Assembly: GCF_041320705.1 (NCBI RefSeq)
Contig: NZ_JBGGTQ010000009.1
Span: 124,001-188,000 of the forward strand
DNA length: 64,000 nucleotides
DNA from: Kineococcus mangrovi
GTDB taxonomy: Bacteria > Actinomycetota > Actinomycetes > Actinomycetales > Kineococcaceae
Reading direction: 5' to 3'
Of the stretch, positions 22,513-36,575 are shown one piece after another. Position numbers and translations under genes: made by a program. Within the stretch, counting starts at the first letter, position 1. Each line of letters begins with the position of its first letter. Under the pieces are notes generated by a model. That model searched no databases and had not been told where the DNA came from. It saw nothing but the letters and a program-made list of their open reading frames with translations.

Positions 22513-22607
22513 GTCCGCGACCGTAGACCGCCCGCCCCGGCGCCGGGTAGGGGCGGCCGCGCCGGAACTGGCCTGGCGACTTCCGGCAGGGGTGGTTGGC
22601 TGGGCGC

Positions 22608-23522
22608 ATGCGCATCTTCTTCACGGGCGGCAGCGGCAAGGCCGGCCACCACGTCGCGCCGTACCTGGCCTCCCAGGGGCACCACGTGACGAACGCCGAC
22701 CTCACCCCGCTGGGCCACCCCGACGTCACCGACCTGCGCGTCGACCTCACCGACGCGGGGCAGGTGTACTCGGCGTTGGCGGGGATGCCGACGATGGCCG
22801 ACCTCGACGGCCCCGGCGGCAGCGCGGGTGGTTCGTCCTACGACGCCGTCGTCCACTTCGCCGCCATCCCCACCATCCTGCGCGCCCCGGACGCGACGAC
22901 GTTCGCGACGAACGTCCTCGCGCACTACAACGTGCTGGAGGCCGCGACGCGGCTCGGCGTCCGCAAGGTCGTCTTCGCCTCCTCGGAGACCACGTACGGC
23001 GTCTGCTTCGCCCAGGGCGAGCGCAAACCCCTGTACGTGCCCGTCGACGAGGAGCACCCGGTCGTCCCCGAGGACTCCTACGCGATGTCGAAGGTGGCGG
23101 GGGAGGTCGTCTCCCGGTCGTTCCAGGCCCGGACCGGCGCGGACGTCTACGGCTTCCGGATCAACAACGTCATCGAGCCGGACGAGTACGCCGAGAAGTT
23201 CCCGCCGTTCTTGACCGACCCCGCGCTGCGCCGTCGCAACGTCTTCGCCTACATCGACACCCGCGACCTGGGTCAGGCGACGCTCAAGGCGCTGCAGACG
23301 GACGGCCTGGGTTTCGAGGTGTTCAACGTCGCCAACGCGGACATGTCGGTCGCCGCGACCACGCAGGAGGTCATCGAGGAGTTCTACGGGGGCGTCGAGG
23401 TGCGGCGGGAGATGGGGCGCGACGAGACGTTCTACAGCATCGAGAAGGCCCGCCGACTGCTCGGGTACGAGCCGCAGCACTCCTGGCGGGACGTGCTGGA
23501 GGACCCCCGCAGGCAGGGGTGA
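22608..23522 (+). CDS. NAD-dependent epimerase/dehydratase
   Basis: A 304-aa extended SDR. The nucleotide motif FTGGSGKAG, the catalytic ASSETTYG serine/threonine and YAMSK (YxxxK) are present. Close relatives act on nucleotide sugars or uronates. It diverges from the Gfo/Idh gene by 95 bp and may work with it on a sugar substrate. ATG 22608 gives the compact N-terminus MRIFFTGG. Confidence 0.85.
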   Translation: MRIFFTGGSGKAGHHVAPYLASQGHHVTNADLTPLGHPDVTDLRVDLTDAGQVYSALAGMPTMADLDGPGGSAGGSSYDAVVHFAAIPTILRAPDATTFATNVLAHYNVLEAATRLGVRKVVFASSETTYGVCFAQGERKPLYVPVDEEHPVVPEDSYAMSKVAGEVVSRSFQARTGADVYGFRINNVIEPDEYAEKFPPFLTDPALRRRNVFAYIDTRDLGQATLKALQTDGLGFEVFNVANADMSVAATTQEVIEEFYGGVEVRREMGRDETFYSIEKARRLLGYEPQHSWRDVLEDPRRQG

Positions 23523-23552
23523 GCCGGCTCCTGCGGGCGACGGGGGGACGGG

Positions 23553-23666
23553 GTGAGGGACCCGCGGGTGCTCGGGGCGCTGCTCGTGCTCCTCGTCGTC
23601 GTCCTGGTGCTGGTGGGGCAGTGGCTCGTCGGTGAGCTGTGGCCGATGACGGCGGAGTCGTACTGA
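23553..23666 (+). CDS. Predicted 37-aa single-pass membrane peptide
   Basis: A GTG-started frame encodes a short N-terminus (MRDPR), one long Val/Leu segment (about 6-27) and a tail ending in MTAESY. It starts 30 bp after the epimerase stop. The hydrophobic helix with charged or polar ends looks like a genuine small membrane protein, but the ribosome-binding site is weak (GGGGGGA). Confidence 0.45.
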   Translation: MRDPRVLGALLVLLVVVLVLVGQWLVGELWPMTAESY

Positions 23667-23712
23667 CCTGCGGGGTGGCACCGGAGCGGGTGGCAGCAGA
23701 GCGGGCGGAACC

Positions 23713-24516
23713 TCAGGGGACCTCCGCACCCTCCCCGTCGGTCACGACGACCCGCACCCCCGCCGCGTGGAACGGGGCGAGGGCGGAGGGCTCGGCGGCG
23801 GCGTCCGTCACGAGCGTCCAGCCGGCCGGCATCGGCGCCCACGCGTGGAACGGGCGGCGGGAGAGCTTCACCGCGTGGGCCAGGACGTGCACGCGGTCGG
23901 CCCGGCGCGCCATGAGTTCCTTCAGGCGGGTCTGCTGCTGGTCGGCCTCGCAGATCCCGTCCTCGGCGCTCACGCCGTCCGCCCCGAGGAACACCGCGTC
24001 GGCGGTCACGCGTTCGAGGGCGGCCTCGGTGAGCGGGCCCACGAAACCCTGGCTGAGGTGGCGCAGGGAACCCCCGAGGGAGACGACCTCGACGTCGTCG
24101 GCGTCCGCGAGCTCGTCGAGGACGGTCAGGCCCGTCGTGACGACGGTGAGCGGCGCGCGGCGCCGGAGTTCGTGGGCGAGCGCTCCGACGGTCGTCCCCG
24201 CGTCCAGCATCACCGTCTCGCCCGGCCGGACCTGGCGCGCGGCCCAGCGGGCGATGCCGCGCTTGGCCTCGAACGCCTCGCCGGTGCGCTGCCGCAGCGA
24301 CTGCTCGGGGTGCGCGACCGAGGGGGCGGCGCCGCCGTAGGTGCGGGTGATGAGGCCCTGGTCGCGCAACCGCGCCAGGTCGCGACGGATGGTGGACGCC
24401 GTGACGCCCAGCCGTGCCGACAGCTCCTCCACGCTCGCGATCCCGGAGGTGCTGGCCAGGTGCAGGATCTCGCGACGGCGCGCGTCGGTCCCCGAGGCGG
24501 TGGCGGGCTCGCTCAC
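23713..24516 (-). CDS. DeoR-family transcriptional repressor
   Basis: A 267-aa sugar-phosphate-responsive repressor. The N-terminal HTH (about 12-65: SVEELSARLGVTASTIRRDL followed by TRTYGGA) and the C-terminal sensor domain (LDAGTTVGAL, SLGGSL, LGADGVSAEDGI) match the family. It sits 7 bp downstream of the pdxA2-like gene on the same strand, so it is probably cotranscribed and controls this catabolic region. The effector is likely a phosphorylated intermediate of the pathway. Confidence 0.9.
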   Translation of the reverse strand: MSEPATASGTDARRREILHLASTSGIASVEELSARLGVTASTIRRDLARLRDQGLITRTYGGAAPSVAHPEQSLRQRTGEAFEAKRGIARWAARQVRPGETVMLDAGTTVGALAHELRRRAPLTVVTTGLTVLDELADADDVEVVSLGGSLRHLSQGFVGPLTEAALERVTADAVFLGADGVSAEDGICEADQQQTRLKELMARRADRVHVLAHAVKLSRRPFHAWAPMPAGWTLVTDAAAEPSALAPFHAAGVRVVVTDGEGAEVP

Positions 24517-24523
24517 GCCGGTC

Positions 24524-25588
24524 TCACGACCCCGACGAGGCGGGTGCGCCCGCCAGCTCCGTGGCCTGCCGCAACGCCTCGACCATGCTGCCGACCTCCA
24601 CCCGTCCCGTCCCCGCGATGTCGAACGCCGTGCCGTGGTCGACCGACGTGCGGATGACGGGCAATCCCACCGTGATGTTGACCCCCGCCTCGATCCCGAG
24701 CACCTTCACCGGGCCGTGGCCCTGGTCGTGGTACATCGCGACGATGAGATCGTAGTCACCGCGGCCGCCGAGGAAGAACGCCGTGTCGGCCGGCAACGGA
24801 CCGACGGCGTCCACGCCCGCGGCGCGCGCCGCCTCGATGCCGGGGGTGACCTTCTCGGCCTCCTCGCCGTACCCGAACAGCCCGTTCTCCCCGGCGTGCG
24901 GGTTGATGGCGCAGACCCCGACGTGCGGGTTCGGGTTCCCCGCCCGCCGCAGCGCCTCCGCCCCGCGGCGGATCGTGCGTTCCACGAGTCCGGGTTCGAT
25001 GCGCGCGATCGCGTCGATGAGCCCGATGTGGGTCGTGACGTGGATGACCTTGATGCGCGGGGTCGTCAGCATCATCGACACCTCCTGCACGCCGCAGAAG
25101 TGGGCGAGGAGTTCGGTGTGCCCGGGGTAGAGGTGGCCGGCGGCGTGCAGGGCGGCCTTGTTGAGGGGGGCGGTGCAGATGGCCTGGACGTCCCCGGCCA
25201 TCGCGAGTTCGCAGGCGATCCGCACGTACTCGTGCGCCGCGTGCCCGGCCGCGGCGGACAGTTCCCCCCACGGCAGGTCCGCCGGCAGCAGACCCGGGTC
25301 GATCACGTTGACCCGGCCCGGTGCGAACTCGGCGGCGGCCACGTCCGGCACGACCACCACGTCCGCCTGGACGCCCAGGGCCCGCGCGGCCCGCCGCAAC
25401 CGCTCGGCGTCCCCGACGACGACGGGGCGTCCGTCCCGGTAGGCGGCCGGGTCGAGGAGGGCGCCGACGGTGACCTCGGGGCCGACCCCGGCGCCGTCGC
25501 CCATCGTGACGGCGATCGCGGGACGGGTGTCCCCACGGGTGCCCGCGGGAGCGGCCGAGGTGGCGTCGGTGACGGTCGAGGGGGTCAC
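24524..25588 (-). CDS. PdxA2-type 4-phospho-acid dehydrogenase
   Basis: A 354-aa member of the PdxA family, NAD-dependent oxidative decarboxylases using a divalent metal. MGDGAGVGPEV, TAPLNKAALHAAG, PGHTELLAHF and MYHDQGHGPVK carry the phosphate- and metal-binding residues. Next to a DUF1537 kinase this is the PdxA2 type, which converts 4-phospho-threonate or erythronate to DHAP, rather than vitamin B6 synthesis. GTG 25588 overlaps the kinase stop (GTGA) and follows AGGAGA. Confidence 0.9.
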   Translation of the reverse strand: MTPSTVTDATSAAPAGTRGDTRPAIAVTMGDGAGVGPEVTVGALLDPAAYRDGRPVVVGDAERLRRAARALGVQADVVVVPDVAAAEFAPGRVNVIDPGLLPADLPWGELSAAAGHAAHEYVRIACELAMAGDVQAICTAPLNKAALHAAGHLYPGHTELLAHFCGVQEVSMMLTTPRIKVIHVTTHIGLIDAIARIEPGLVERTIRRGAEALRRAGNPNPHVGVCAINPHAGENGLFGYGEEAEKVTPGIEAARAAGVDAVGPLPADTAFFLGGRGDYDLIVAMYHDQGHGPVKVLGIEAGVNITVGLPVIRTSVDHGTAFDIAGTGRVEVGSMVEALRQATELAGAPASSGS

Positions 25589-26745
25589 GGGATCTCCTGG
25601 GGTGCGCGGACGGGGACACCGCTGCGCAGAGCGCGCAGCAGCCGGACGAGGTCGGTGAGCGTCGGGTCCTGCCCGAAGCTGCCGGGTTTGGTGGCGACCA
25701 GGCGGCCGTCGTCGGCGAGGCTGACGACGACGCCGTGGTCGGGCTGGGTGACCGGTCGCAGCCACCGCACGCCGAGGTGGTCCAGGACGGCGCGCGCGGT
25801 CTGCCCGCCGGTGAGGACGAGGTCGGCGGTGGCGTGGGTCCGCCCGACCCGGCGCGCGAGGTCGGCGACCGCCTCCCCGGGGCCCGCACCGCTCGCGTCG
25901 ACCGTCAGCAGGTGGGTGTGCTCGTCGACGACGGCGGCTGCGCGCAGGTGCGCGGTCTGCGCGACGGCAGCGGCCGATCCGCTGCCCACGGCGAGGACGA
26001 CCGGCCGGTGGCCGGCGGCGGGGACGGGTGCGGGGGCGCGCCGGGACGGGGCGGGGGTCGTGTCGGCGACGGCGGCGACGAGGGCCGCGCTGCCGACGAG
26101 GGCCACGCGGCGACCGCGGGAGACGGCCCCGGCGGCGGCGGCCGCCGCGGCGCGCAGGTCGCTGCCGGTCTCCCCGTCGAGCACGCAGAGCTCCTGGCCC
26201 TGGAGGGTCCAGCCGGTGCGCAGGGCGTGGAGGGGGACGGCGGTGACGTGCCCGTCCAGCAGGTCCGCCACGGTCCGGGGCGCCGGACGCGGTTCGAGGG
26301 CCCACAGCGCGGTGTCCGCCAGCGGGACGTCGTGGACGAAGGGGGCACCGTCCCGGACCGACCGGCCCAGGGACGGCAGCGCTCCCGCCAGGACGACCTG
26401 GAAACCGTTGTCCCGCAGCCCCTCGACCGTGGCGGCGACGTTCCCCCGCCAGAGGGAGTCGAGCTTGACGACGACGAGGGCGGGACCGTCCGGGTCCGCC
26501 GTGGCCGCGCGGACGGCGCTCCGGGCCGACGGGGGCGCGCTCGCCCGGTGGTCGGTGTCCACGACGGTGGTGCCGTCCCCGCTGGGCGCGGCGGGCGCGC
26601 CGTCGGGACCGGCGAGGACGACGCGGCAGTCCCGGCCCCGGGCGAGCAGGGCACCGGCGACCTCCGCCGCGCCCGAGAGGTCGTCGGCCAGGACGTGCTG
26701 GAGGGCGGCGCGCGTCGGCGCGCGGGGGGTGGGTGGTGCGGTCAC
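25585..26745 (-). CDS. Four-carbon acid sugar kinase (DUF1537)
   Basis: A 386-aa ATP-dependent kinase. The N-terminal domain has LADDLSGAAEVAGALL and VVKLDSLWRGN; the C-terminal nucleotide domain has LTGGQTARAVLDHLG and TKPGSFG. Characterised relatives phosphorylate D-threonate, D- or L-erythronate or related acids at C4. GTG start with AGGAGG upstream. It is the first gene of the minus-strand kinase-pdxA2-deoR unit. Which acid it uses cannot be read from sequence. Confidence 0.88.
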   Translation of the reverse strand: MTAPPTPRAPTRAALQHVLADDLSGAAEVAGALLARGRDCRVVLAGPDGAPAAPSGDGTTVVDTDHRASAPPSARSAVRAATADPDGPALVVVKLDSLWRGNVAATVEGLRDNGFQVVLAGALPSLGRSVRDGAPFVHDVPLADTALWALEPRPAPRTVADLLDGHVTAVPLHALRTGWTLQGQELCVLDGETGSDLRAAAAAAAGAVSRGRRVALVGSAALVAAVADTTPAPSRRAPAPVPAAGHRPVVLAVGSGSAAAVAQTAHLRAAAVVDEHTHLLTVDASGAGPGEAVADLARRVGRTHATADLVLTGGQTARAVLDHLGVRWLRPVTQPDHGVVVSLADDGRLVATKPGSFGQDPTLTDLVRLLRALRSGVPVRAPQEIP

Positions 26746-26762
26746 GGGTCACCTCCTGGTGG

Positions 26763-26798
26763 CTCTCGCGGTGGGTCTCGCGGCGGCTCTCACGGCGA
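26763..26798. repeat. Three tandem 12-bp units
   Basis: CTCTCGCGGTGG, GTCTCGCGGCGG and CTCTCACGGCGA follow one another without gaps, just upstream of the kinase ribosome-binding site. They could be a regulatory array or a slippage-derived repeat. Confidence 0.5.
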
Positions 26799-26832
26799 CG
26801 TCGCCTGGCCCGGCGGGACCACGGTCCCACAG

Positions 26833-26867
26833 GTTGCGTGTTTCGCGCCAGACCGTTGCGCGTTCCG
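26833..26867. promoter_or_regulatory. Candidate DeoR operator (22-bp spaced direct repeat)
   Basis: GTTGCGTGTTTCG (26833-26845) and GTTGCGCGTTCCG (26855-26867) match at 11 of 13 positions and start 22 bp apart, two helical turns. DeoR-family repressors often bind direct repeats, and a deoR gene lies in the regulon. The operator role is inferred. Confidence 0.5.
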
Positions 26868-27029
26868 AGCAGGAGTGGCACAGTGCTCGTCGGACGACGC
26901 CGTCCGGACGACCCGGCACCGGCGCCCGCGAGACCGACCAGCACCCGCGCAGCACCGCGAGCAGCACCCGATCAGCAGCCGATCAGGACGAGCCCACCGG
27001 TCCCGTCCCGCCGAGATGAGGGGTCACCG

Positions 27030-28616
27030 ATGACCGCCGCGACACCCCGACCACCCGATCGCTCCGCCCAGCTCACCCGCCGCACGCTGCTCGCCGGCGG
27101 TGCGGGCCTCGGCGTGGCCGGTCTCGGTGCGCTCACGGGCTGCGCCGGCCCCACCGGGGCTCCCGGCCCCGACACGCTGACCCTCGCGCTCAACCGGTCC
27201 CTCGTGAGCCTGGACAACAAGCTGAACCAGTTCGACGCGGCCGTCACGGTGCAGCGCGCGGTGCGCCAGGCGCTGACCGAGATCGGCACGGACGTGAAAC
27301 CCGCGCTCGTCCTCGCGGAGAGCTTCGAGCTGACCGAACCCACGCGCTGGACCGTCCGGCTGCGCCCCGAGGCGTGCTACTCCGACGGTTCACCGGTCAC
27401 CGTCGAGGACGTCGCCACGGCGCTGCAGAGCTACGCCGACACCGGTGCCAGCTTCGTCGCGAGCTTCTTCCCCGAGATGCCCACCGTCAGCAAGCTCGAC
27501 GACCGCACGTTCACCCTCGACACCGAGCGCCCGCTGCCGATGCTGGACGCGCTGATGAGCAACATCCTCATCACCCCGGCCGCGGCCAACCGCCCCGAGG
27601 AACTGCAGGACGGGCTCGGTTCGGGCCCCTACGTCATGACCTCGCACGACCGGGGGACCGGCACCTACCGGCTGACGCGGAACGAGAGGTACTGGGGGAC
27701 CCCGGCGACGACCCGGACGGTCGACGTGCGGTTCTCCCCCGAGGAGTCCAGCCGGGTCATCGCCATCCGCAGCGGTGAGGTCGACGTCATCGACTCCATC
27801 ACCCCCGACTCGGCCCAGCAGCTCGAAGGCCTGCCCGGGATCCACCTGAGCCAGGTGCCGAGCCTGCGGCTGAACCAGATCTTCTACAACTTCCGCAAAC
27901 CCCCGGGTCACCCGCTGGCCGACCCGCGCGGCCGGCAGGCCCTCAGCATGGCGATCGACGGGAAGTCCCTCGTCGAGGAGGTCCTCGCGGGCACGGCCGT
28001 CCAGGCCGAGGGCGTCGTCACCTCCAACCAGGACGGGTACGTCAAGACCGGGGAGTACGTCTACGACCCCGGAGCCGCCCGGAAGATCCTGGCCTCGATG
28101 GGGGCGCAGGACCTCGAGGTCACCATCGTGTGGGAGTCCGGGGAGTTCCCCGGCGACACGTTCGTCATGGAGGCCCTCGTCGACATGTTCGGCGACATCG
28201 GTGTCCGCGCCCGGCTGCGGGAGTTCCAGCCCGGCGGGGACATCATGTCCTGGCGGCAGGGTCGCGCCGGCGACTGGGACCTGCTCGGCAACGGCTTCCC
28301 CGGACCCACCGGGCAGGCGATCGTCATGCTGCAGGGGATGTACGCGGGAACGGCCGAGAAGGAGCAGACCCGCGACACCTACCAGGGATACGTCGTCCCC
28401 GCCGTCACCGACCTCATCGCCGCGGCGTCCTCCGAGACCGACCCCGTGCGACGGCGCGAACTCACCGCCCAGGCGCAGCAGGCCGTCTGGGACACCTGGC
28501 CCTGCGCCTGGCAGTTCAACCCCAAGGCGATCCTCGCGCGCCGGGACCGGGTCCACGGGATCGACCTGTCGCCCGCGAACAACTACCGCCTGTCCGCCGT
28601 CGAGCTGAAGGGCTGA
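27030..28616 (+). CDS. ABC transporter substrate-binding lipoprotein (family 5, Dpp/Opp type)
   Basis: A 528-aa extracellular receptor for a peptide or oligosaccharide-like solute. A twin-arginine motif (TRRTLLAGG) is followed by lipobox LTGC (C at about 37), so it is Tat-exported and lipid-anchored. SBP_bac_5 features include FELTEPTRWTVRLRPEACYS near residue 110 and RQALSMAIDGKSLVEEVL. ATG 27030 has GATGAGGGG upstream. It is the first gene of the long plus-strand operon. Confidence 0.92.
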   Translation: MTAATPRPPDRSAQLTRRTLLAGGAGLGVAGLGALTGCAGPTGAPGPDTLTLALNRSLVSLDNKLNQFDAAVTVQRAVRQALTEIGTDVKPALVLAESFELTEPTRWTVRLRPEACYSDGSPVTVEDVATALQSYADTGASFVASFFPEMPTVSKLDDRTFTLDTERPLPMLDALMSNILITPAAANRPEELQDGLGSGPYVMTSHDRGTGTYRLTRNERYWGTPATTRTVDVRFSPEESSRVIAIRSGEVDVIDSITPDSAQQLEGLPGIHLSQVPSLRLNQIFYNFRKPPGHPLADPRGRQALSMAIDGKSLVEEVLAGTAVQAEGVVTSNQDGYVKTGEYVYDPGAARKILASMGAQDLEVTIVWESGEFPGDTFVMEALVDMFGDIGVRARLREFQPGGDIMSWRQGRAGDWDLLGNGFPGPTGQAIVMLQGMYAGTAEKEQTRDTYQGYVVPAVTDLIAAASSETDPVRRRELTAQAQQAVWDTWPCAWQFNPKAILARRDRVHGIDLSPANNYRLSAVELKG

Positions 28617-28620
28617 GGCC

Positions 28621-29556
28621 GTGGTCGCGTACGTCCTGAAGCGAGTGGGCCAGGGCCTGCTCACCGTCTTCCTCACGGTCTCGACCGTGTTCGTCCTCAT
28701 CCGCCTCGCCCCGGGCGACCCCGCCCGCGCGTTCGCCGGCCCGCTGGCCACGACCGAGCAGCTGCAGCAGGTGCGGGACCGGTTCGGCCTGGAGGACCCG
28801 CTCGCCTCGCAGTACCTGACGTTCCTGTCGCAGCTGCTGCACGGGAACCTGGGGGAGTCCTACAGCTTCCAGGCCCCCGCGCTGAGCGTCGTCGCGGACC
28901 GCGTGCCCTACACACTCACCCTGGCGTGCACGGCCATCGTCGTCGCCGCCGTCGTCTCGATCCCGCTCGGCGTGTGGATGTCGCGCCGTCGCGACAGCCG
29001 CTCCGAGCTGGCCGCGAACGTCGCGACCATCGCCGGGCAGTCCATGCCGGACTTCTGGATCGGCGTCCTGCTCCTCAGCGTCTTCGCGGTGGCCCTGCCG
29101 GTGCTGCCGGCGTCGGGGTTCGCGACGTGGAGCGGCCTGCTCCTGCCCGCCGTGACCATCGCGATCCTGCAGGTCGCCCTGCTGTCCCGGCTCGTGCGGC
29201 GCGAGATGGTGCAGAACCTCGCGGCGCCGTACTTCGTGGTCGCCCGCTCGCGCGGTTTCTCCGACCACGTCCTCACGTGGCGCTACGCGATGGGGAACTC
29301 CGCGATCCCCGTCTTCACGGCCCTCGGCACCCGGTTCGCCGCCATGCTCAACGGCGTCGTCGTCGTCGAGGTCGTGTTCGCCTGGCCCGGCGTCGGTTCG
29401 CTGGTCGTGCGCGCCCTGGAGACCCGCGACTACCCGCTGATCCAGGCCACCGTCCTCGTGACGTCCGTCCTGGCCATCGGCGTCCAGCTGCTCGTGGACC
29501 TCCTCTACCCCCTGCTCGACCCACGTGTGCGTCTCGGGAAGGCGAGTGCAGCATGA
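28621..29556 (+). CDS. ABC transporter permease, DppB type
   Basis: A 311-aa membrane permease with six segments. The N-terminal MVAYVLKRVGQGLLTVFLTV and RLAPGDPARAF are typical of DppB/OppB, as is the cytoplasmic EAA-type loop (VVARSRGFSDHVLTWRYAMG). GTG start 4 bp after the binding protein. It pairs with the DppC-type permease, whose ATG overlaps its stop. Confidence 0.92.
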   Translation: MVAYVLKRVGQGLLTVFLTVSTVFVLIRLAPGDPARAFAGPLATTEQLQQVRDRFGLEDPLASQYLTFLSQLLHGNLGESYSFQAPALSVVADRVPYTLTLACTAIVVAAVVSIPLGVWMSRRRDSRSELAANVATIAGQSMPDFWIGVLLLSVFAVALPVLPASGFATWSGLLLPAVTIAILQVALLSRLVRREMVQNLAAPYFVVARSRGFSDHVLTWRYAMGNSAIPVFTALGTRFAAMLNGVVVVEVVFAWPGVGSLVVRALETRDYPLIQATVLVTSVLAIGVQLLVDLLYPLLDPRVRLGKASAA

Positions 29557-30479
29557 GCACGCAGACCACCAGCCGGCCCAGCGCCGTCACGGCGGCCCAC
29601 CTCGCCCGCGCGGCGACGACGCGGCAGGCCCGCGCGAACCGCACCAAGACGGTCGCCGGCCTCGTCTGCGCGCTGATCGTCGTCGTCCCCATCCTGGTGG
29701 CGAACCTGCTGCCGCTGCCGGACCCGAACGCCCAGGACCTCGGCGACCGGCTGCTGCCGCCGCTGAGCGCCGGCCACCTGCTCGGCACCGACCAGCTGGG
29801 CCGCGACCTGCTGTCCCGCGTCCTGCACGGGGGGCAGGTCTCCCTCGCGGTCGGCGTCCTGGCGGTCGTCGTCTCCGGGGCCATCGGCCTCGCGCTCGGC
29901 TCGGCGGCCGGGTTCTACGGGCGCTGGGTCGACGTCGTGGTCTCCCGGTTGCTGGAGGCGCAGATGTCGCTGCCGCTGCTGATGATGCTGCTGCTCGTCG
30001 TGGCGCTGTTCGGGCAGTCGATCCTCGTCATCACCCTCGTCATCGCCGTCGCGCAGTGGCCCGAGGTGGCACGCCTGACCCGCTCCCTGGTGCTCGTGGA
30101 ACGGGAGAAGCCGTACGTCGCGGCCGCCCGCACCCTGGGGTTGCGGCGGGTGGGGATCCTCGTGCGCCACGTGGTCCCGAACGTCCTGCCGCAGACCCTG
30201 CTCGTCGTCCTGCTGCTGCTGGCGCAGGCCGTGCTGCTGGAGAGCGCGCTGAGCTTCCTCGGCGCGGGCCCGCAACGCCCCTTCGCCACCTGGGGCCGCA
30301 TCGTCTCCGACGGGCAGGACTACATCGGCACCGCCTGGTGGCTCGTCACCGCCCCCGGCGTGGCCATCGTGCTGCTCGTCGTCGGGGTGAACCTGCTGGG
30401 GGACGCGCTGCGCGACGGGGCGGCGACGTCCTGGCGCCGCCGCGTCCGTGGACTGCTGGACCGAGGGAGGACCGCGTGA
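29553..30479 (+). CDS. ABC transporter permease, DppC type
   Basis: A 308-aa permease. HLLGTDQLGRDLLSRVLHGG is the DppC/OppC signature, and the EAA loop is YVAAARTLGLRRVGILVRHV. The long polar N-terminus precedes the first membrane helix at about 34. It starts at an ATGA overlap with the DppB-type gene. Confidence 0.92.
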   Translation: MSTQTTSRPSAVTAAHLARAATTRQARANRTKTVAGLVCALIVVVPILVANLLPLPDPNAQDLGDRLLPPLSAGHLLGTDQLGRDLLSRVLHGGQVSLAVGVLAVVVSGAIGLALGSAAGFYGRWVDVVVSRLLEAQMSLPLLMMLLLVVALFGQSILVITLVIAVAQWPEVARLTRSLVLVEREKPYVAAARTLGLRRVGILVRHVVPNVLPQTLLVVLLLLAQAVLLESALSFLGAGPQRPFATWGRIVSDGQDYIGTAWWLVTAPGVAIVLLVVGVNLLGDALRDGAATSWRRRVRGLLDRGRTA

Positions 30480-31375
30480 AGACGCTCGACCGCACCGGAC
30501 CGCAGGTGCGCGACGCCGCCCGCGAGCGGCAGGGCCCCGACGCCCCGCCGCTGCTGGAGGTGCGCGACCTGCAGGTCGAACTCATGACCGCCCGCGGGAT
30601 CGTCCGCGCCGTCGACGGGGTCTCGTTCTCCGTCGACCGCGGTGAGACGGTGACGCTCATCGGGGAGTCGGGGTCGGGCAAGTCGACGACCGCGATGGGG
30701 GTCCTGGGGCTGCTGCCCGACGACCTCGCCGTCCTGTCCGGGGCGGTCGTGCTCGACGGCGTCGACGTGCTGCGCGAACCCCGCGCGATGGCCGCCGCCC
30801 GCGGCCGCACCGTGGCGCTCGTCCCGCAGGACCCCATGACGGCGCTCAGCCCGGTGCACAGCATCGGCAGCCAGTTGTGCGAGGCCGTCCGGCACGCCGG
30901 CGCCGCGAGCGGGGCGACGGCCGTGAAGGCCCGCGCCGAACGCCTGCTGGAGCAGGTCCACATCCCCGACCCGCCGGCGCAGCTGCGCAAGTTCCCGCAC
31001 CAGTTGTCCGGCGGGATGCTGCAACGCGTGCTCATCGCGATGGCACTGGCGAGCGAACCGCAGCTCATCGTCGCCGACGAGCCCACCTCGGCCCTCGACG
31101 TCACCGTCCAGGCCGGTGTCCTGGACCTGCTGCTGGAACTGCAGGAGCAGCGGGGCGTGGCGCTGCTCGTCATCACCCACGACCTGGGGGTCGCCCGGCT
31201 CGTGTCCGACCGCCTGCACGTCATGCGCGGCGGGGTGTTCGTGGAGTCCGGTGAGGTGGAGGCCGTCGTCGGGAACCCGCGCGAGGAGTACACGCGCGAG
31301 CTGCTCGCCGCCGTCCCCGCGCTGGGGGTCTGGGACGAGGACCCGGGGTTCACCCCGGCAGGAGGACGCTCGTGA
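30476..31375 (+). CDS. ABC transporter ATPase, DppD type
   Basis: A 299-aa ATPase with Walker A GESGSGKST, signature LSGGMLQR, Walker B LIVADEPTSALD and the switch histidine in VITHD. The C-terminal oligopeptide-type extension is short. It starts at a GTGA overlap, so transporter subunits are made in equal amounts. Confidence 0.93.
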   Translation: MKTLDRTGPQVRDAARERQGPDAPPLLEVRDLQVELMTARGIVRAVDGVSFSVDRGETVTLIGESGSGKSTTAMGVLGLLPDDLAVLSGAVVLDGVDVLREPRAMAAARGRTVALVPQDPMTALSPVHSIGSQLCEAVRHAGAASGATAVKARAERLLEQVHIPDPPAQLRKFPHQLSGGMLQRVLIAMALASEPQLIVADEPTSALDVTVQAGVLDLLLELQEQRGVALLVITHDLGVARLVSDRLHVMRGGVFVESGEVEAVVGNPREEYTRELLAAVPALGVWDEDPGFTPAGGRS

Positions 31376-32217
31376 ACGGCACCGGCACACCCGTCCTGGA
31401 GGTCGAGGGCCTCGTCGTCGAGTACGGCGCGGGGGCCGGGGCGTTCCGCGCCGTCGACGGCGTCTCGTTCCGCGTCCCGCGCGGGTCGACCGTCGCCGTC
31501 GTGGGGGAGTCCGGCTGCGGGAAGTCCACGGTCGCCAAGGCCGTCATGCGGCTGCTCGAACCCACGGCGGGCCGGGTCCTGCTCGACGGGACCGACATCA
31601 CCCACCTGCCCGACCGCCGGTTGCGTCCGTTGCGCCACCGCTGGCAGATGGTGTTCCAGGACCCCTACGGCTCCCTCGACCCGCACCTGACGGCCGCGGA
31701 GATCGTCGGTGAGGCGCTGCGGCAGCGGGGAACCCCGAAGGACCGCCGGGACGCCCGCGTCCGGGAGCTGTTCGACCGGGTGGGTCTGCCGGCCAGCGGC
31801 CTGGACCGCCGGCCCGCGGAGTTCTCCGGCGGTCAGCGCCAGCGCATCGGCATCGCCCGCGCCCTGGCGTCGGAACCCGAGCTGCTCCTGTGCGACGAGG
31901 CCACGAGCGCGCTCGACGTCTCCGTGCAGGCGCAGGTGCTCGACCTGCTGCGCGAGGTGCAGCGCGACAGCGGCATCAGCTGCCTGTTCATCTCCCACAA
32001 CCTCGGTGTCGTGCAGGGCATCAGCGACGAGGTGGTCGTCATGCGCCGGGGCCGGGTCGTCGAGACCGGGCCCACCACCCGGGTCCTCACGAGCCCGGCG
32101 GAGGACTACACGCGCCGGTTGCGCCGCGCCGCGCTCGACCCGGCCGCCATGGTCGGCCGCAAACCCCGCCACGTCGTCCGCGGCGTGCTCACCACCACCG
32201 GAGGGACCGCCGCATGA
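31372..32217 (+). CDS. ABC transporter ATPase, DppF type
   Basis: A 281-aa second ATPase with Walker A GESGCGKST, FQDPYGSLDP (typical of DppF), signature FSGGQRQR, Walker B LLLCDEATSALD and FISHN. It starts at a GTGA overlap and completes a five-gene Dpp/Opp importer. Confidence 0.93.
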   Translation: MNGTGTPVLEVEGLVVEYGAGAGAFRAVDGVSFRVPRGSTVAVVGESGCGKSTVAKAVMRLLEPTAGRVLLDGTDITHLPDRRLRPLRHRWQMVFQDPYGSLDPHLTAAEIVGEALRQRGTPKDRRDARVRELFDRVGLPASGLDRRPAEFSGGQRQRIGIARALASEPELLLCDEATSALDVSVQAQVLDLLREVQRDSGISCLFISHNLGVVQGISDEVVVMRRGRVVETGPTTRVLTSPAEDYTRRLRRAALDPAAMVGRKPRHVVRGVLTTTGGTAA

Positions 32218-33176
32218 CCACCACGGGGAACGGGGGCGCGCGCCCCGTGCTCGGCACCATGACGTTCGCCGACACCGTCGACGAGGGTGCGGCGAAGGAG
32301 ATGCTCGACGTGGCCCTCACCCACGGGGTGAGCGCGATCGACACCGCCAACGCCTACGCCGGCGGAGCGACCGAGGAACTCCTGGGGACCCTGCTCGCCG
32401 GCCGGCGCGACGAGGTCGAACTCGCCTCCAAGGTCGGGATGCCGCACCCGGACGCCGGGCAGGACGCCCCGCTCTCGCCCGCCGCCGTCCGGCGCTGCGT
32501 CGAGGCGAGCCTGCGCCGGTTGCGCACCGACCGGCTCGACCTGCTCTACCTGCACCAGCCCGACCGCTCCACCCCCGTCGAGGACACGCTGACGGCGGTC
32601 GCGGAACTCGTCGCCGAGGGCAAGGTGCGTCGCCTCGGCGTCTCGAACTACGCCGCCTGGCAGATCGCCGACGTCGAGACGGCCGCCGACCGCGTCGGTG
32701 CCCCCCGGCCGGTCGTGGCTCAGCAGCTCTACAACCTGCTGGCCCGCCGCATCGAGGAGGAGTACGTCGAGTTCGCCGCCGTCCACCAGCTCGCGACGAT
32801 GGTCTACAACCCCCTCGGCGGCGGGTTGCTGACGGGCCGGCACCGCTTCGCCGAACGCCCCTCGGAGGGGCGGTTCGGGTCGTCCCGGCTCGCGGGGACG
32901 TACACGCAGCGGTACTGGGACGAGCAGTTGTTCGACGGCGTCGAGCGGTTGCGCGTCGTGGCCGAGGGGGCGGGGCTGCCGATGGCCGAGCTCGCGCTGC
33001 GCTGGACGGCCCACCGCGACGTCGTGGACCAGTTGCTGCTCGGGGGGTCGCGCGCCGAGCAGCTGCGGCAGAACCTGCGGGCGCTGGCCGAGGGCCCGCT
33101 GCCCGCCGACGTCCTCGCGGCCTGCGACGAGGTGGGGACCGCGTTGCGCGGACCGGCCCCGGCCTACAACCGTTGA
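32214..33176 (+). CDS. Aldo/keto reductase
   Basis: A 320-aa AKR. The catalytic set is D and Y in DTANAYAGG, K in ELASKVGMP and H in LYLHQPDR. RWTAHRDVVDQLLLGGSRAE is the cofactor-binding end. ATG overlaps the DppF stop (ATGA). As part of the transporter operon it probably oxidises or reduces the imported sugar or sugar acid. Confidence 0.88.
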   Translation: MTTTGNGGARPVLGTMTFADTVDEGAAKEMLDVALTHGVSAIDTANAYAGGATEELLGTLLAGRRDEVELASKVGMPHPDAGQDAPLSPAAVRRCVEASLRRLRTDRLDLLYLHQPDRSTPVEDTLTAVAELVAEGKVRRLGVSNYAAWQIADVETAADRVGAPRPVVAQQLYNLLARRIEEEYVEFAAVHQLATMVYNPLGGGLLTGRHRFAERPSEGRFGSSRLAGTYTQRYWDEQLFDGVERLRVVAEGAGLPMAELALRWTAHRDVVDQLLLGGSRAEQLRQNLRALAEGPLPADVLAACDEVGTALRGPAPAYNR

Positions 33177-33211
33177 CCCCCCGACCCACGACCACCCGAG
33201 GAGCCCCACCC

Positions 33212-33994
33212 GTGCAGGCAGCAGATCGACCAGACCCCGCCGACTTCGCCCGGCGCGTGCGCGCCCGCGACCTCGTCGTCGGGTACTGGATCACCCTCGA
33301 CGCCCCGTTCGCGACCGAGCGCGTCGCGCGACTGGGTTACGACTACGTCGCGGTCGACGCCCAGCACGGCCTGCTCGGGCACAGCGGCGTCCTGCACGGG
33401 ATGCTCGCCGTCGACTGCGGCGGGTCGGCCGGGGTCGTGCGCGTCGCGGCGAACGACCCGACCGCCATCGGCCACGCCCTCGACGCCGGTGCGCGGGCCG
33501 TCGTCGTGCCCCTGGTGAACACCGCGGCCGAGGCCGCCGCGGCGGTCCGGTCCGCGAAGTACCCCCCGCACGGCGTCCGTTCCTACGGACCCATGCGGTC
33601 GGGGTTGCGCGTGGGTCCCGTCCCCGTGCAGGCCGACGAGCAGACGGCGGTGCTGGCGATGATCGAGACGTCCGACGGCCTGGCGAACGTCGAGGAGATC
33701 GCCGCGACCCCCGGCCTCGACGGGCTGTACGTCGGACCCTCGGACCTCTCGATCGGTCTCGGCGGTGCGTTCCCCGGCGATCCCGCCGTGCAGGAGGAGT
33801 TCGACGCGGCCCTCGCGCGGGTCCTGGCCGCCACCGCCGCGGCGGGCATCGCGGCGGGCATCCACACCCCGCACGGGGACGTGGCCCGCCAGCGCATCGA
33901 GGCGGGGTGGACCTTCGTCACCGTCGCCTCCGACGTCGTGCACCTGGAGCACGCCGCGCGGACGCACCTCTCGACCGCGAGGGGGCAGGCGTGA
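33212..33994 (+). CDS. HpcH/HpaI-family aldolase
   Basis: A 260-aa metal-dependent class II aldolase. DYVAVDAQHGLLGHSG, the arginine in VVRVAANDP, and AMIETSDGLANVEEI with GLYVGPSDLSIGLG give the base, metal ligands and product loop. Relatives cleave 2-keto-3-deoxy acids (rhamnonate, galactarate) to pyruvate plus an aldehyde. GTG 33212 follows GAGGAG. Its product could feed central metabolism in parallel with the kinase-PdxA2 arm. Confidence 0.88.
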   Translation: MQAADRPDPADFARRVRARDLVVGYWITLDAPFATERVARLGYDYVAVDAQHGLLGHSGVLHGMLAVDCGGSAGVVRVAANDPTAIGHALDAGARAVVVPLVNTAAEAAAAVRSAKYPPHGVRSYGPMRSGLRVGPVPVQADEQTAVLAMIETSDGLANVEEIAATPGLDGLYVGPSDLSIGLGGAFPGDPAVQEEFDAALARVLAATAAAGIAAGIHTPHGDVARQRIEAGWTFVTVASDVVHLEHAARTHLSTARGQA

Positions 33995-35187
33995 GCGTCC
34001 GGGAGTTCCTGTTGCCCGTCGTCGAGGACCCGTCGGTGACCACGCTCACCGGTGAGGGGGGTGTCGTCTCCGGGTTCCTGCCCGCCCCGACCGTGCAGTG
34101 CCACGCGGCGAACCTGTCCGTGCTCCCCGGCGGGGACCTGGCCTGCGTCTGGTTCGGCGGGACGCAGGAGGGCGTGGCGGACATCGACGTGTGGATGTCC
34201 GTCCTCGCCCCGTCCGCCGTCGAGTGGGCCGAACCGGTCCGGTTGTCCTCGGACCCGGAGCGCTCGGAGCAGAACCCGGTCCTGTGGACCACGCCGGCGG
34301 GTGAGGTGTGGTTGCTGCACACCGCGCAGAGCGCCGGGAACCAGGACACCGCCGAGGTGCGCCGCCGCGTGTCCACGGACGGTGGTCGGACGTTCGGGCC
34401 GACGCGGACGTTCGTCCCCGCGTCCGCGGCGGGTGGGGTGTTCGTGCGGCAACCACCCGTCGTGACCCCGGCCGGGCGCTGGCTGCTGCCGGTGTTCCGC
34501 TGCCCCGTCGCGCCGGGGGCCCGCTGGCGCGGGGACGAGGACGACAGCGTCGTGCTCGCCTCCGACGACGAGGGCCGCACCTGGCGCGAGGTCGTCGTCC
34601 CCGCCAGCACGGGGATGGTCCACATGAACGTGCTGGTCCGTCCCGACTCCTCGCTCGTGGCGTTCTACCGCAGCCGCTGGGCCGACGCGGTCCACCGGTC
34701 CGTCTCCACCGACGGTGGTGCGAGCTGGTCGGCGCCGGAACCCACCCCGCTGCCGAACAACAACTCCTCCGTCCAGGTGTCCGGCGACCCGGCCGGTGGC
34801 CTCGTCGTCGCCTTCAACCGCATCCGCGCCACCGAGGACACCCCGCGCCGGGAATCCCTCTACGACGAGATCGGGGACGAGGGGATCGTCGACCAGGTCG
34901 TGTCCCCGGTCGCGACGGCGGACGGGCCCCGCGCGGTGTGGGGAACCCCGCGGGCGCCCATGACGCTGGCCCGCTCGAGCGACGGCGGTCTCACCTGGGA
35001 CCGCTCCCTGGACCTGGAAGGCGGGGACGGGAACTGCCTGACGAACGACTCCCGGGCCGGGGCGAACCACGAACTGTCCTACCCGAGCGTCCTCGTCGTC
35101 GGTGACACCGTCCACGTCGCCTACACCTGGCACCGCCGGGCGATCCGGTACGCGCGACTGCCGCTGGCCCTGCTGGCGGCGGGGTGA
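33991..35187 (+). CDS. Cytoplasmic Asp-box (sialidase-fold) protein
   Basis: A 398-aa six-bladed propeller protein. Four Asp-boxes of the S-x-D-x-G-x-x-W/F type occur at about 128-135, 191-198, 239-246 and 329-336, with the first ending in F. No signal peptide is present, and no clear RIP motif of true sialidases. Such BNR-like proteins include lyases and glycosidases acting on acidic sugars. The GTG start overlaps the aldolase stop (GTGA). It probably acts on the imported substrate inside the cell. Confidence 0.8.
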   Translation: MSVREFLLPVVEDPSVTTLTGEGGVVSGFLPAPTVQCHAANLSVLPGGDLACVWFGGTQEGVADIDVWMSVLAPSAVEWAEPVRLSSDPERSEQNPVLWTTPAGEVWLLHTAQSAGNQDTAEVRRRVSTDGGRTFGPTRTFVPASAAGGVFVRQPPVVTPAGRWLLPVFRCPVAPGARWRGDEDDSVVLASDDEGRTWREVVVPASTGMVHMNVLVRPDSSLVAFYRSRWADAVHRSVSTDGGASWSAPEPTPLPNNNSSVQVSGDPAGGLVVAFNRIRATEDTPRRESLYDEIGDEGIVDQVVSPVATADGPRAVWGTPRAPMTLARSSDGGLTWDRSLDLEGGDGNCLTNDSRAGANHELSYPSVLVVGDTVHVAYTWHRRAIRYARLPLALLAAG

Positions 35188-35855
35188 GCCCCCTCGCCGT
35201 CGTCACCGGCTGCAGCTCGGGCATCGGACGAGCCGTCACCGAGCACCTGCTCGGGCGGGGTTTCCGGGTGCGGGGGTTGTCCCGCACCGCACCCGACCTC
35301 GCCGGGGTCGACTGGGTGGCGGCCGACCTCGCCGACGCCGAGCAGGTCGTGGCGGGCGTCGCGGACCTCGGCAGCGTCGACGCGGTCGTGCACTGCGCGG
35401 GGTTCCAGCGCACGAACCCCCTGGGGTCGTTGCGCGCCGGGGACCTGCGGGCCATGTTCGACGTCCACGTCGCCGCGGCCGCCCTGCTCGTCGACGCCCT
35501 CGCCGACCGGGTCGCCGACGGCGGGCGCGTCGTCCTGCTCGGCAGCCGGACGATGGTCGGGGTCGCGGGCAAGTCCCAGTACGCCGCGACGAAGGCCGCG
35601 CTGACGGGGCTGTCCCGCAGCTGGGCCCAGGAACTCGCCCCCCGCCGGATCACGGTGAACGTGGTGGCCCCCGGCCCCACCGAGACGGCCATGACGCACG
35701 ACCCCGGCCGCGCGAGCACGCCCGTGCGGGTCCCACCGCTGGGTGCCCTCGTCGACCCCGCCGACGTCGCCGAGCTCGTGGGGTTCCTGCTCGGGCCGGC
35801 GGGCAGGTCGGTGACGGGGCAGGCGGTCGTCGTGTGCGGGGGCGCGTCCCTGTGA
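35184..35855 (+). CDS. Short-chain dehydrogenase/reductase
   Basis: A 223-aa SDR with TGCSSGIG, CAGFQ, LLGSRTM (catalytic serine) and YAATK, followed by VNVVAPGPTETAM. It starts at a GTGA overlap with the Asp-box gene and is the last gene of the operon. A sugar-acid or keto-sugar redox role is inferred from context. Confidence 0.9.
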   Translation: MSPLAVVTGCSSGIGRAVTEHLLGRGFRVRGLSRTAPDLAGVDWVAADLADAEQVVAGVADLGSVDAVVHCAGFQRTNPLGSLRAGDLRAMFDVHVAAAALLVDALADRVADGGRVVLLGSRTMVGVAGKSQYAATKAALTGLSRSWAQELAPRRITVNVVAPGPTETAMTHDPGRASTPVRVPPLGALVDPADVAELVGFLLGPAGRSVTGQAVVVCGGASL

Positions 35856-35873
35856 ACCGCGTCCGTCGCCTCC

Positions 35874-36494
35874 TCAGCCGCCGGTGACGTCGCGCAGGGC
35901 CCGGCAGGTGCCGCGGTAGGTGGCCACGAGGTCGGCGTCCTCGCCCCGCTCGCGGCGAGCGGCCCAGTCGTCCAGGGCGGCGCGCAGCCCGGCGCCCAGG
36001 ACCTCGGCCAGGACGCGGGTGCGCAGGTCGACCGTCGCCGCCCCGGTCGCGGCCGCCACGCGGGCGAAGAAGGCGGCGGTCTGCTCGGCGTCCAGGCGCA
36101 GGAGCGCCCCGCGCAGGCCGGCGTCCTCGATGACGAGGCACCGCACCCGCAGCATCCGCTCGATCGCGCCCGCTGCCGCCGACAGCGTCGTCAGGACGTC
36201 CGCGATGCAGTCCTCGAGGTCGCTCAGGGACGCCGGGGAGCCGACGCGCTCTTCCAGCCGCTCGGTCAGCGCGGCGTCGAAGGCCCGGTTGGCGCCGAGG
36301 GCCGCGTCCTCCTTCGTCGCGAAGTACCGGAAGAAGGTGCGCGGCGAGACGCCCGCGGCGGCGGCGATGTCGTCGACCGTCGTCCGTTCGGACCCGTGGC
36401 GCGCGAACAGGTCGAGGGCGACCTGCTCGATCTCGGCCCGCGTGGCGAGGCGGCGGCGCTCGCGCAGGTCCGGGTGGGGCGTCGGGGTCGTCAC
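35874..36494 (-). CDS. TetR-family repressor
   Basis: A 206-aa regulator. The HTH is TTVDDIAAAAGVSPRTFFRY. GTG 36494 gives MTTPTPHPDLRERRRLATRAEIEQ, the normal start of the family; the longer frame lacks support. It diverges from the MFS exporter and probably represses it through the palindromes at 36522-36557. Confidence 0.88.
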   Translation of the reverse strand: MTTPTPHPDLRERRRLATRAEIEQVALDLFARHGSERTTVDDIAAAAGVSPRTFFRYFATKEDAALGANRAFDAALTERLEERVGSPASLSDLEDCIADVLTTLSAAAGAIERMLRVRCLVIEDAGLRGALLRLDAEQTAAFFARVAAATGAATVDLRTRVLAEVLGAGLRAALDDWAARRERGEDADLVATYRGTCRALRDVTGG

Positions 36495-36521
36495 GGCAAG
36501 GAGGATAGCGAGTGTCGAGTT

Positions 36522-36557
36522 GGCAGTGACTGCCATTAAGGTGGTGACTGTCACCAC
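36522..36557. promoter_or_regulatory. Two operator-like palindromes between tetR and the MFS gene
   Basis: GGCAGT-G-ACTGCC (36522-36534) and GTGGTGAC-T-GTCACCAC (36541-36557) are both perfect, share the GTGACTG core, and their centres lie 21 bp apart, two helical turns. This fits a TetR repressor binding twice on one DNA face. Confidence 0.75.
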
Positions 36558-36575
36558 ACCGAGGAGCCCTCACCC

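Follow-up and report, generated by a model that had tools for sequence, protein, structure and literature searches.

A divergent cluster of twelve genes in the actinobacterium Kineococcus mangrovi probably serves to import and degrade 3-deoxy-D-lyxo-hept-2-ulosaric acid (Dha), free or as a small glycoside, and to channel it into D-threonate catabolism. The cluster lies at positions 23713-35855 of a 64,000-nucleotide stretch of contig NZ_JBGGTQ010000009.1 (RefSeq assembly GCF_041320705.1, positions 124,001 to 188,000 of the forward strand), hereafter the window, the DNA of which is about 74% GC within a genome of 4.36 Mb. Our reading is built on the gene families present, on their conservation as a set in other genomes, on an operator-like site shared by the two halves of the cluster, and on the D-threonate profile cut-offs passed by the corresponding enzymes of Klebsiella. 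We lean, by a little, towards seeing in the cluster the first bacterial route for Dha that can be recognised as complete. On this view a cytoplasmic sialidase-like protein would have taken on a new role (as a glycosidase, anomerase or lactonase acting on Dha), and a very rare plant wall sugar would be converted, through D-threonate, to pyruvate and dihydroxyacetone phosphate (DHAP) along a scavenging route.

Results

Gene content and layout

Open reading frames and Pfam assignments agree with the original prediction as to the twelve genes at this locus. They are listed here with the operator-like sites discussed below.

23713..24516, minus strand: DeoR-family repressor, the local regulator (PF00455/PF08220)
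24524..25588, minus strand: PdxA2, predicted 4-phospho-D-threonate dehydrogenase, yielding DHAP and CO2 (PF04166, 1e-99)
25585..26745, minus strand: DUF1537 kinase, predicted D-threonate 4-kinase (PF07005, 7.8e-26; PF17042, 1.2e-11)
26834-26850 and 26856-26872, no strand assigned: two operator-like palindromes in the divergent promoter, consensus TTGCGCGWWWCGCGCAA (motif search)
27030..28616, plus strand: family 5 solute-binding protein, SBP_bac_5 (PF00496, 8e-60)
28621..29556, plus strand: Dpp-type permease 1, BPD_transp_1 (PF00528, PF19300)
29553..30479, plus strand: Dpp-type permease 2, BPD_transp_1 (PF00528)
30476..31375, plus strand: ABC ATPase 1 (PF00005)
31372..32217, plus strand: ABC ATPase 2 (PF00005)
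32214..33176, plus strand: aldo/keto reductase (AKR), predicted reductase of the aldehyde acid D-threuronate (PF00248, 5.5e-64)
33212..33994, plus strand: HpcH/HpaI-type pyruvate aldolase, predicted Dha aldolase (PF03328, 2e-33; HpaI and GarL profiles; nearest solved relatives)
33991..35187, plus strand: BNR_2 Asp-box (sialidase-like) protein, predicted cytoplasmic, candidate for acting on a ring form, lactone or glycoside of Dha (PF13088, 9e-59)
35184..35855, plus strand: SDR oxidoreductase, accessory (PF13561)

The kinase, PdxA2 and DeoR genes are thus transcribed divergently from those for the solute-binding protein, importer, reductase, aldolase, Asp-box protein and SDR. With the gene starts that we chose, four-base overlaps join seven of the ten adjacent gene pairs on a common strand, as is usual for a coupled operon. 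PdxA occurs once and DUF1537 twice in the whole genome, where the Asp-box protein has a single match, and since the same genes recur in the vicinity in loci found through Asp-box similarity, their grouping is more than chance.

Conservation of the set

Comparable loci were collected by similarity to the Asp-box protein and comprised the best 80 of 379 relatives in genome contigs and 14 proteobacterial plasmid loci (L085-L098), hand-picked by organism from 307 plasmid records. Of these 94 loci, 84 with at least 9 kb of left and 2 kb of right flank were counted and ten shorter ones dropped; L001-L004 were also left out. A gene was scored as present if tblastn matched it at E 1e-12 at any point of the locus. 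An isolated weak match can accordingly stem from another gene (that for MFS in L089 belongs to a ProP-type gene), the loci from which queries were taken match their own proteins, some genera contribute several loci, and gene calls in part of the relatives' loci are heuristic. On this basis the kinase was present in 79 loci, PdxA2 in 82, an aldolase in 70 and a reductase in 79, with all four together in 67 of the 84; the two halves of the divergent operon, whose unity the original prediction had staked on joint conservation, do belong together, and the aldol cleavage that it proposed gains support likewise. A transporter accompanies the set in 81 loci, the SDR in 72 and YhcH in three, and relatives of the regulators DeoR and GntR in 60 and 13, respectively.

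The aldolase is of the HpcH type in 54 loci and of the DHDPS family in 16, never both, and the reductase is an AKR in 64 and an iron alcohol dehydrogenase (Fe-ADH) in 15. Fe-ADH replaces AKR in proteobacterial loci, and a DHDPS-family protein replaces HpcH there and in Curtobacterium; in some relatives the importer gives way to SSF, MFS or citrate-type (SLC13) permeases. In Sinomonas atrocyanea (L016), for instance, an MFS gene adjoins PdxA2 and tblastn of the locus gave no importer match. Gene order is equally fluid, running GntR, kinase, PdxA, Fe-ADH, DHDPS, SSF symporter, Asp-box, SDR in Methylobacterium nodulans; in Rhizobium etli a GntR-kinase-Opp importer group diverges from DHDPS-Asp-box-Fe-ADH-PdxA, and the Agrobacterium locus is arranged differently again. 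By tblastn the SDR was not found in the rhizobial loci L086, L092-L095 and L097. The Fe-ADH of Sinorhizobium meliloti ml56 was matched in two pieces (L093:13171-14378) that are not listed as a gene, and may be broken. Because unrelated families are swapped for the same step (aldolase, reductase, transporter) while the remaining set is kept, we see strong evidence that both halves form one pathway unit. Among eight nearer relatives from the window's order (L128-L135), AKR and HpcH are present in all, and kinase and PdxA2 in seven, within the stretches read; even distant Asp-box genes (L118, L125-L127; 37-43% identity) have PdxA2, a kinase, AKR and an aldolase as neighbours.

The set occurs in actinobacteria and in alpha-, beta- and gammaproteobacteria. 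Genome searches with differing E-value limits found the Asp-box gene in at least 2 of 12 genomes of the window's family (E 1e-20), at least 21 of 297 of the order and at least 3 of 396 of the phylum. The Asp-box protein family appears sparse by these counts, and its scarcity within the window's family marks the set as accessory and perhaps moved between lineages.

Among enterobacteria, the Asp-box gene is found in 1043 of 5426 complete Escherichia coli genomes, about a fifth. E. coli Nissle 1917 and ATCC 25922 carry the set between glnS and nagE, with YhcH and a CitMHS/SLC13 permease, whose family transports di- and tricarboxylates, as would suit a diacid substrate, and their annotation names dtnK and a D-threonate 4-phosphate dehydrogenase. 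A TerC-family membrane protein lies within the E. coli set (L116:11141-11899), between the aldolase and the Asp-box gene. YhcH, of an anomerase family that has an N-acetylneuraminate anomerase profile, stands beside the Asp-box gene in Pantoea, Klebsiella and E. coli, which hints that the set handles a ring-form acid. The E. coli genes correspond to region GR6 (nagE to glnS), for which a similar S. meliloti cluster has been noted and, in the excerpt used, no pathway assigned (PMC12928451; this and the other papers are cited from excerpts).

On its left the window locus is flanked by a Gfo/Idh/MocA oxidoreductase (21406-22512, minus strand) and an NAD-dependent epimerase (22596-23522, plus strand). 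The epimerase weakly matches D-erythronate dehydrogenase (24 bits against 325), and a relative of 43% identity lies near the set in L130 alone among the eight order relatives. A TetR regulator and an MFS gene follow the operon at 35874-38081, as they do in a genome of the same genus (G002, L128); in L135 an MFS relative of 51% identity stands on the opposite side of the set.

A shared operator-like site

The regions between the kinase and the solute-binding protein gene share the element TTGCGCGAA, which is exact in 37 of 64 loci and present with at most one mismatch in 59. Exact copies occur at 2.15 per kb within these regions and 0.008 per kb outside, and shuffled 9-mers of equal composition matched a mean of 0.05 regions (maximum 3), with the motif picked from the same 64 regions, window included, in which its enrichment was counted. 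The cleaner test is genome-wide: the window holds two copies of the extended form, at 26834-26850 (two mismatches) and 26856-26872 (three), where 0.24 would be expected, and the former is the only site with at most two mismatches in the 4.36 Mb genome, the reversed control giving none. One operator may therefore serve both halves, and DeoR is presumably the protein that binds it.

Kinase, PdxA2 and the four-carbon acid

By Pfam, a kinase with SBD_N and NBD_C domains adjoins a PdxA-family dehydrogenase, the arrangement that marks DUF1537/PdxA2 catabolism of four-carbon acids. In Klebsiella (L090), where DeoR-PdxA2-kinase diverges from Fe-ADH-DHDPS-SSF-Asp-box-YhcH-SDR, the kinase scores 505.7 bits (D-threonate kinase cut-off 450) and PdxA2 665.1 bits (D-threonate 4-phosphate dehydrogenase cut-off 583). 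The PdxA of Pantoea ananatis (L085) likewise passes, at 653.8 bits; tblastn found no kinase in that locus. The window kinase, for its part, gave no match to PDB sequences at E 0.001. From the correspondence of the sets we infer that D-threonate is also the acid handled by the kinase and PdxA2 of the window. Salvage of a four-carbon fragment by this pair, as originally proposed, is thus upheld by conservation of the set and by the Klebsiella scores.

Aldolase, reductase and substrate

Pyruvate aldolases of the HpcH and DHDPS types split 2-keto-3-deoxy acids and release pyruvate. If a reductase acts between such an aldolase and a kinase for tetronates, the intermediate must be a four-carbon aldehyde acid and the aldolase substrate, in turn, a seven-carbon 2-keto-3-deoxy diacid. 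The window aldolase matches the HpcH/HpaI family profile; its best NCBIfam profile is HpaI, named for a seven-carbon 2-oxo diacid, although this score (158 bits) and that for GarL (149 bits) both lie below the equivalog cut-offs. Fischer bookkeeping, checked on Kdo (giving D-arabinose), 3-deoxy-D-arabino-heptulosonate (D-erythrose) and 2-keto-3-deoxygluconate (D-glyceraldehyde), shows that two of the eight seven-carbon isomers, D-lyxo (Dha) and D-xylo, lead to D-threonate and the other six to other tetronates. Reduction of the four-carbon aldehyde acid to D-threonate would account for the conserved redox step, and the oxidation ahead of the aldolase that had been postulated is not needed. As to the substrate, import of an acid sugar is supported; the glucuronate-, rhamnose- and sialate-containing oligosaccharides put forward for trial give way to a seven-carbon 2-keto-3-deoxy diacid, for which Dha is the best candidate. 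Dha is a seven-carbon analogue of sialic acid that the GH143 enzyme of Bacteroides thetaiotaomicron cuts from chain D of rhamnogalacturonan II (RG-II) after arabinofuranose has been removed (PMC6811678). In plants it is known from RG-II only (PMC12168206), and it is the only such seven-carbon sugar named in the excerpts of the two papers.

The Asp-box protein

By eye, no signal peptide is recognisable at the N-terminus of the Asp-box protein, MSVREFLLPVVEDPSV, or at those of nine relatives, two of them judged from over-long starts. The Asp-box repeat profile (PF13088) is present and a profile search meets sialidases from 4e-10. We read the alignment against the Tyr/Glu pair and Arg triad that we take to be the motif of GH33 sialidases. 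The catalytic Glu, in the LTEC stretch of solved exo-alpha-sialidases, aligns with H211, so the GH33 catalytic Glu is lacking; of 58 sequences, 55 have His at this position and three have Gln. R227 aligns with one sialidase Arg, R321 and Y364 were matched to the motif by eye, and the first Arg of the triad was not found in the sequence alignment. Residues invariant over the 58 sequences include H38, E60, R153, R227, R229, R321, Y364 and R382, and the many Arg among them would suit a diacid ligand.

The SSF, MFS and SLC13 carriers that stand in for the Dpp importer point to a small free acid as the substrate. Since relatives with a single permease perhaps import the acid in its free form, the Asp-box protein seems as likely to act as an anomerase or lactonase as to act as a glycosidase. 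The suggestion that it cleaves an imported oligosaccharide has so far found no support, given these permeases and the replacement of the catalytic Glu by His.

Pectin context and plant association

Five genomes of the window's order (G458, G629, G573, G584 and G417) carry a paralogous set, DHDPS-SBP5-PdxA2-kinase-DeoR/AKR, and no more than about 20 kb from it an Asp-box paralogue that has its own Dpp-type importer. GH28 and pectinesterase genes surround it in all five. Depending on the genome, these loci also hold GH127, GH78 and GH2 genes, one for an apiosidase-like protein, and those for a RuBisCO-like protein paired with a second DUF1537 kinase, as is typical of apionate catabolism. Each family was assigned by Pfam in a single genome and followed into the rest by tblastn, and for G679 the stretch available was 13 kb. 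Beside the paralogue lies a large conserved protein (L121:4132-6615, L123:10023-12119) with no Pfam family, a candidate new glycosidase; the L121 product matches amylases at 0.0065 at best.

Among the plasmid records of Asp-box relatives, 250 of 307 come from Rhizobium, Sinorhizobium, Pantoea or Agrobacterium. Counting genes from the HlyD-family gene taken as rmrA (pRL90059) places a sugar binding protein at pRL90085, as expected, and the importer of the set at pRL90100-101. The transporter gene pRL90101 was induced in the alfalfa rhizosphere and not with pea or sugar beet (excerpt of PMC3333776).

Discussion

In the pathway that we propose, the Dpp-type ABC importer would take up Dha, the Asp-box protein would free or open the sugar (as a glycosidase, anomerase or lactonase), the HpcH aldolase would split open-chain Dha into pyruvate and D-threuronate, and the AKR would reduce the aldehyde of D-threuronate to D-threonate. 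The DUF1537 kinase would then form D-threonate 4-phosphate, which PdxA2 would oxidise and decarboxylate to DHAP and CO2, with DeoR controlling both halves from one operator. The substrate and the first four steps we infer from the conserved set; direct uptake of threonate was considered and rejected, as the aldolase, reductase and Asp-box protein would then be superfluous.

Several observations weigh against this scheme. The window PdxA2 and kinase score far below the D-threonate cut-offs (332.8 bits against 583 for NF002891; 90.6 against 450 for NF047819), and the kinase is only 28% identical to E. coli DtnK. The SDR, so widely conserved, has no step, and the single-permease relatives make a cytosolic glycosidase odd. 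Kinase and PdxA2 were not in the stretch read for L135, and 14 of the 84 loci have no aldolase nearby: twelve from Streptomyces, together with L019 and L089, where most of the set is absent. The pectin-locus paralogue is only 36% identical and differs at H211 and R287, and in G660, which has such a paralogue, the stretches read hold neither PdxA2 nor kinase. Neither GH127 nor PF13204 is confined to RG-II, and the single solved match of the apiosidase-like protein is an unnamed hydrolase. A search of the window's own genome found no GH28, and a Pfam scan of the 16 genes at 21406-38081 no pectin enzyme; lacking GH28, the organism would be a scavenger. The placement of pRL90101 rests on gene counting, and its induction by alfalfa alone is not what a signal as general as RG-II predicts.

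For Streptomyces, all eleven searchable genomes without an operon aldolase have an HpcH relative elsewhere, 60-64% identical to that of the window, although one (G688) has an internal stop. We read about 3.75 kb at each of eight such places. A DeoR relative (57%) turned up at four, accompanied at two of them by a GH78-like gene; two ABC ATPases were seen at one place and an AKR at one, and at two nothing was recognised. In G692 an AKR stands beside the distant aldolase, and it is from the operon of that genome (L029) that the AKR is missing. The places with both the DeoR relative and the GH78-like gene (L149, L151) perhaps form a second half of the regulon. In Streptomyces, a downstream gene (cluster c21) was considered as an aldolase substitute and rejected, being of the endonuclease-I family.

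Of the alternatives, the one that survives best, unlikely as we judge it, keeps the scheme and changes the substrate to another seven-carbon 3-deoxy-ulosarate, such as the D-xylo isomer, or to some unrelated compound that gives rise to threuronate or to a different tetronate, with RG-II not the source. That the D-xylo isomer also yields D-threonate, the low scores of the window kinase and PdxA2 and the alfalfa-only induction would all be accommodated; it has against it the pectin-locus context of the paralogous set and the standing of Dha as the sole such sugar named in PMC12168206 and PMC6811678, so far as excerpted.

The original prediction, that an acidic oligosaccharide is imported, cut by an Asp-box glycosidase, oxidised by SDR or AKR and then passed to the aldolase, we consider doubtful. 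It accounts for the sialidase-type profile and gives the SDR of 72 loci a task, and PepT-type importers can carry oligosaccharides (PMC3333776). However, the set has no dehydratase to turn an oxidised sugar into a 2-keto-3-deoxy acid, and neither the rhizobial loci without a detected SDR, nor the single carriers, nor the His aligned with the catalytic Glu is what it would predict.

Catabolism of sialic acid, KDN or Kdo with a cytosolic sialidase is very improbable. The sialidase-type profile, the YhcH-type gene and the NanA-like DHDPS are all suggestive of it, but we rejected it for the wrong carbon skeleton: Kdo gives D-arabinose in our bookkeeping and sialic acids give hexose derivatives, neither a four-carbon acid. 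The YhcH and DHDPS proteins of Pantoea and Klebsiella, moreover, score below sialic-acid cut-offs, and Pfam revealed no amino-sugar enzyme among the twelve window genes. Hardly credible is a vitamin B6 route in which the kinase phosphorylates 4-hydroxythreonine for PdxA: the pair has been tied to pyridoxal phosphate synthesis (PMC12928451, citing Thiaville 2016), but the genome, whose sole PdxA is that of this locus, has PdxS, so by gene content PdxA is not for B6, and importer, aldolase and reductase would be left unexplained.

Our preferred reading, degradation of Dha through D-threonate, assigns a testable enzyme to each conserved step except the SDR and calls into question the label 'exo-alpha-sialidase' attached to rhizobial, Pantoea and E. 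coli relatives. If true, it would account for a set of genes that many plant-associated bacteria carry and whose marker gene is also present in roughly one in five complete E. coli genomes, and would suggest cross-feeding between pectin degraders and scavengers in gut and root. To our knowledge D-threonate has lacked a known natural source, and the pathway would provide a likely one.

Comparison with known systems

Among the matches listed in a search of the open-licence literature (titles and abstract starts), no paper assigns this pathway or describes bacterial use of Dha after its release from RG-II. The combination may thus stand as an undescribed pathway; the cluster itself had already been noted, and the E. 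coli GR6 and S. meliloti genes (PMC12928451, as excerpted) are the same kind of set, there linked to pyridoxal phosphate and general sugar metabolism. What we find is a real and conserved combination of known kinds of enzyme, by sequence evidence under one switch, in a pathway that we have not found described.

With the D-threonate pathway of DtnK and PdxA2 the locus shares the kinase-PdxA2 pair and its DeoR regulator, and the Klebsiella pair and Pantoea PdxA pass the cut-offs of that pathway. Here, however, an aldolase, an aldehyde reductase and an Asp-box protein apparently feed it in place of direct threonate uptake, and the window members are divergent. Sialic acid catabolism consists of a transporter, the anomerases NanM and NanQ, and the aldolase NanA, with a similar range of transporter types. 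The likeness extends to the 2-keto-3-deoxy acid logic, the pyruvate aldolase, a propeller-type protein and, in enterobacteria, a YhcH-type gene, but here the end product would be a four-carbon acid, most actinobacterial loci use HpcH, and the window has no amino-sugar enzymes. The GarL/GarR galactarate-glucarate and HpaI homoprotocatechuate pathways also apply an HpcH-type aldolase to a 2-oxo diacid and then convert an aldehyde acid; in the present set a four-carbon acid is predicted to pass to a kinase and PdxA2, and the dehydratase is missing. The last comparison is with a propeller-type enzyme that acts on Dha itself, since the Asp-box family weakly matches 5mqr (profile E 0.0045), which we take to be the GH143 Dha hydrolase of B. 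thetaiotaomicron. That enzyme is described as five-fold and as one site of a bimodular protein (PMC6811678), whereas the protein described here is a stand-alone BNR_2 protein without a signal peptide.

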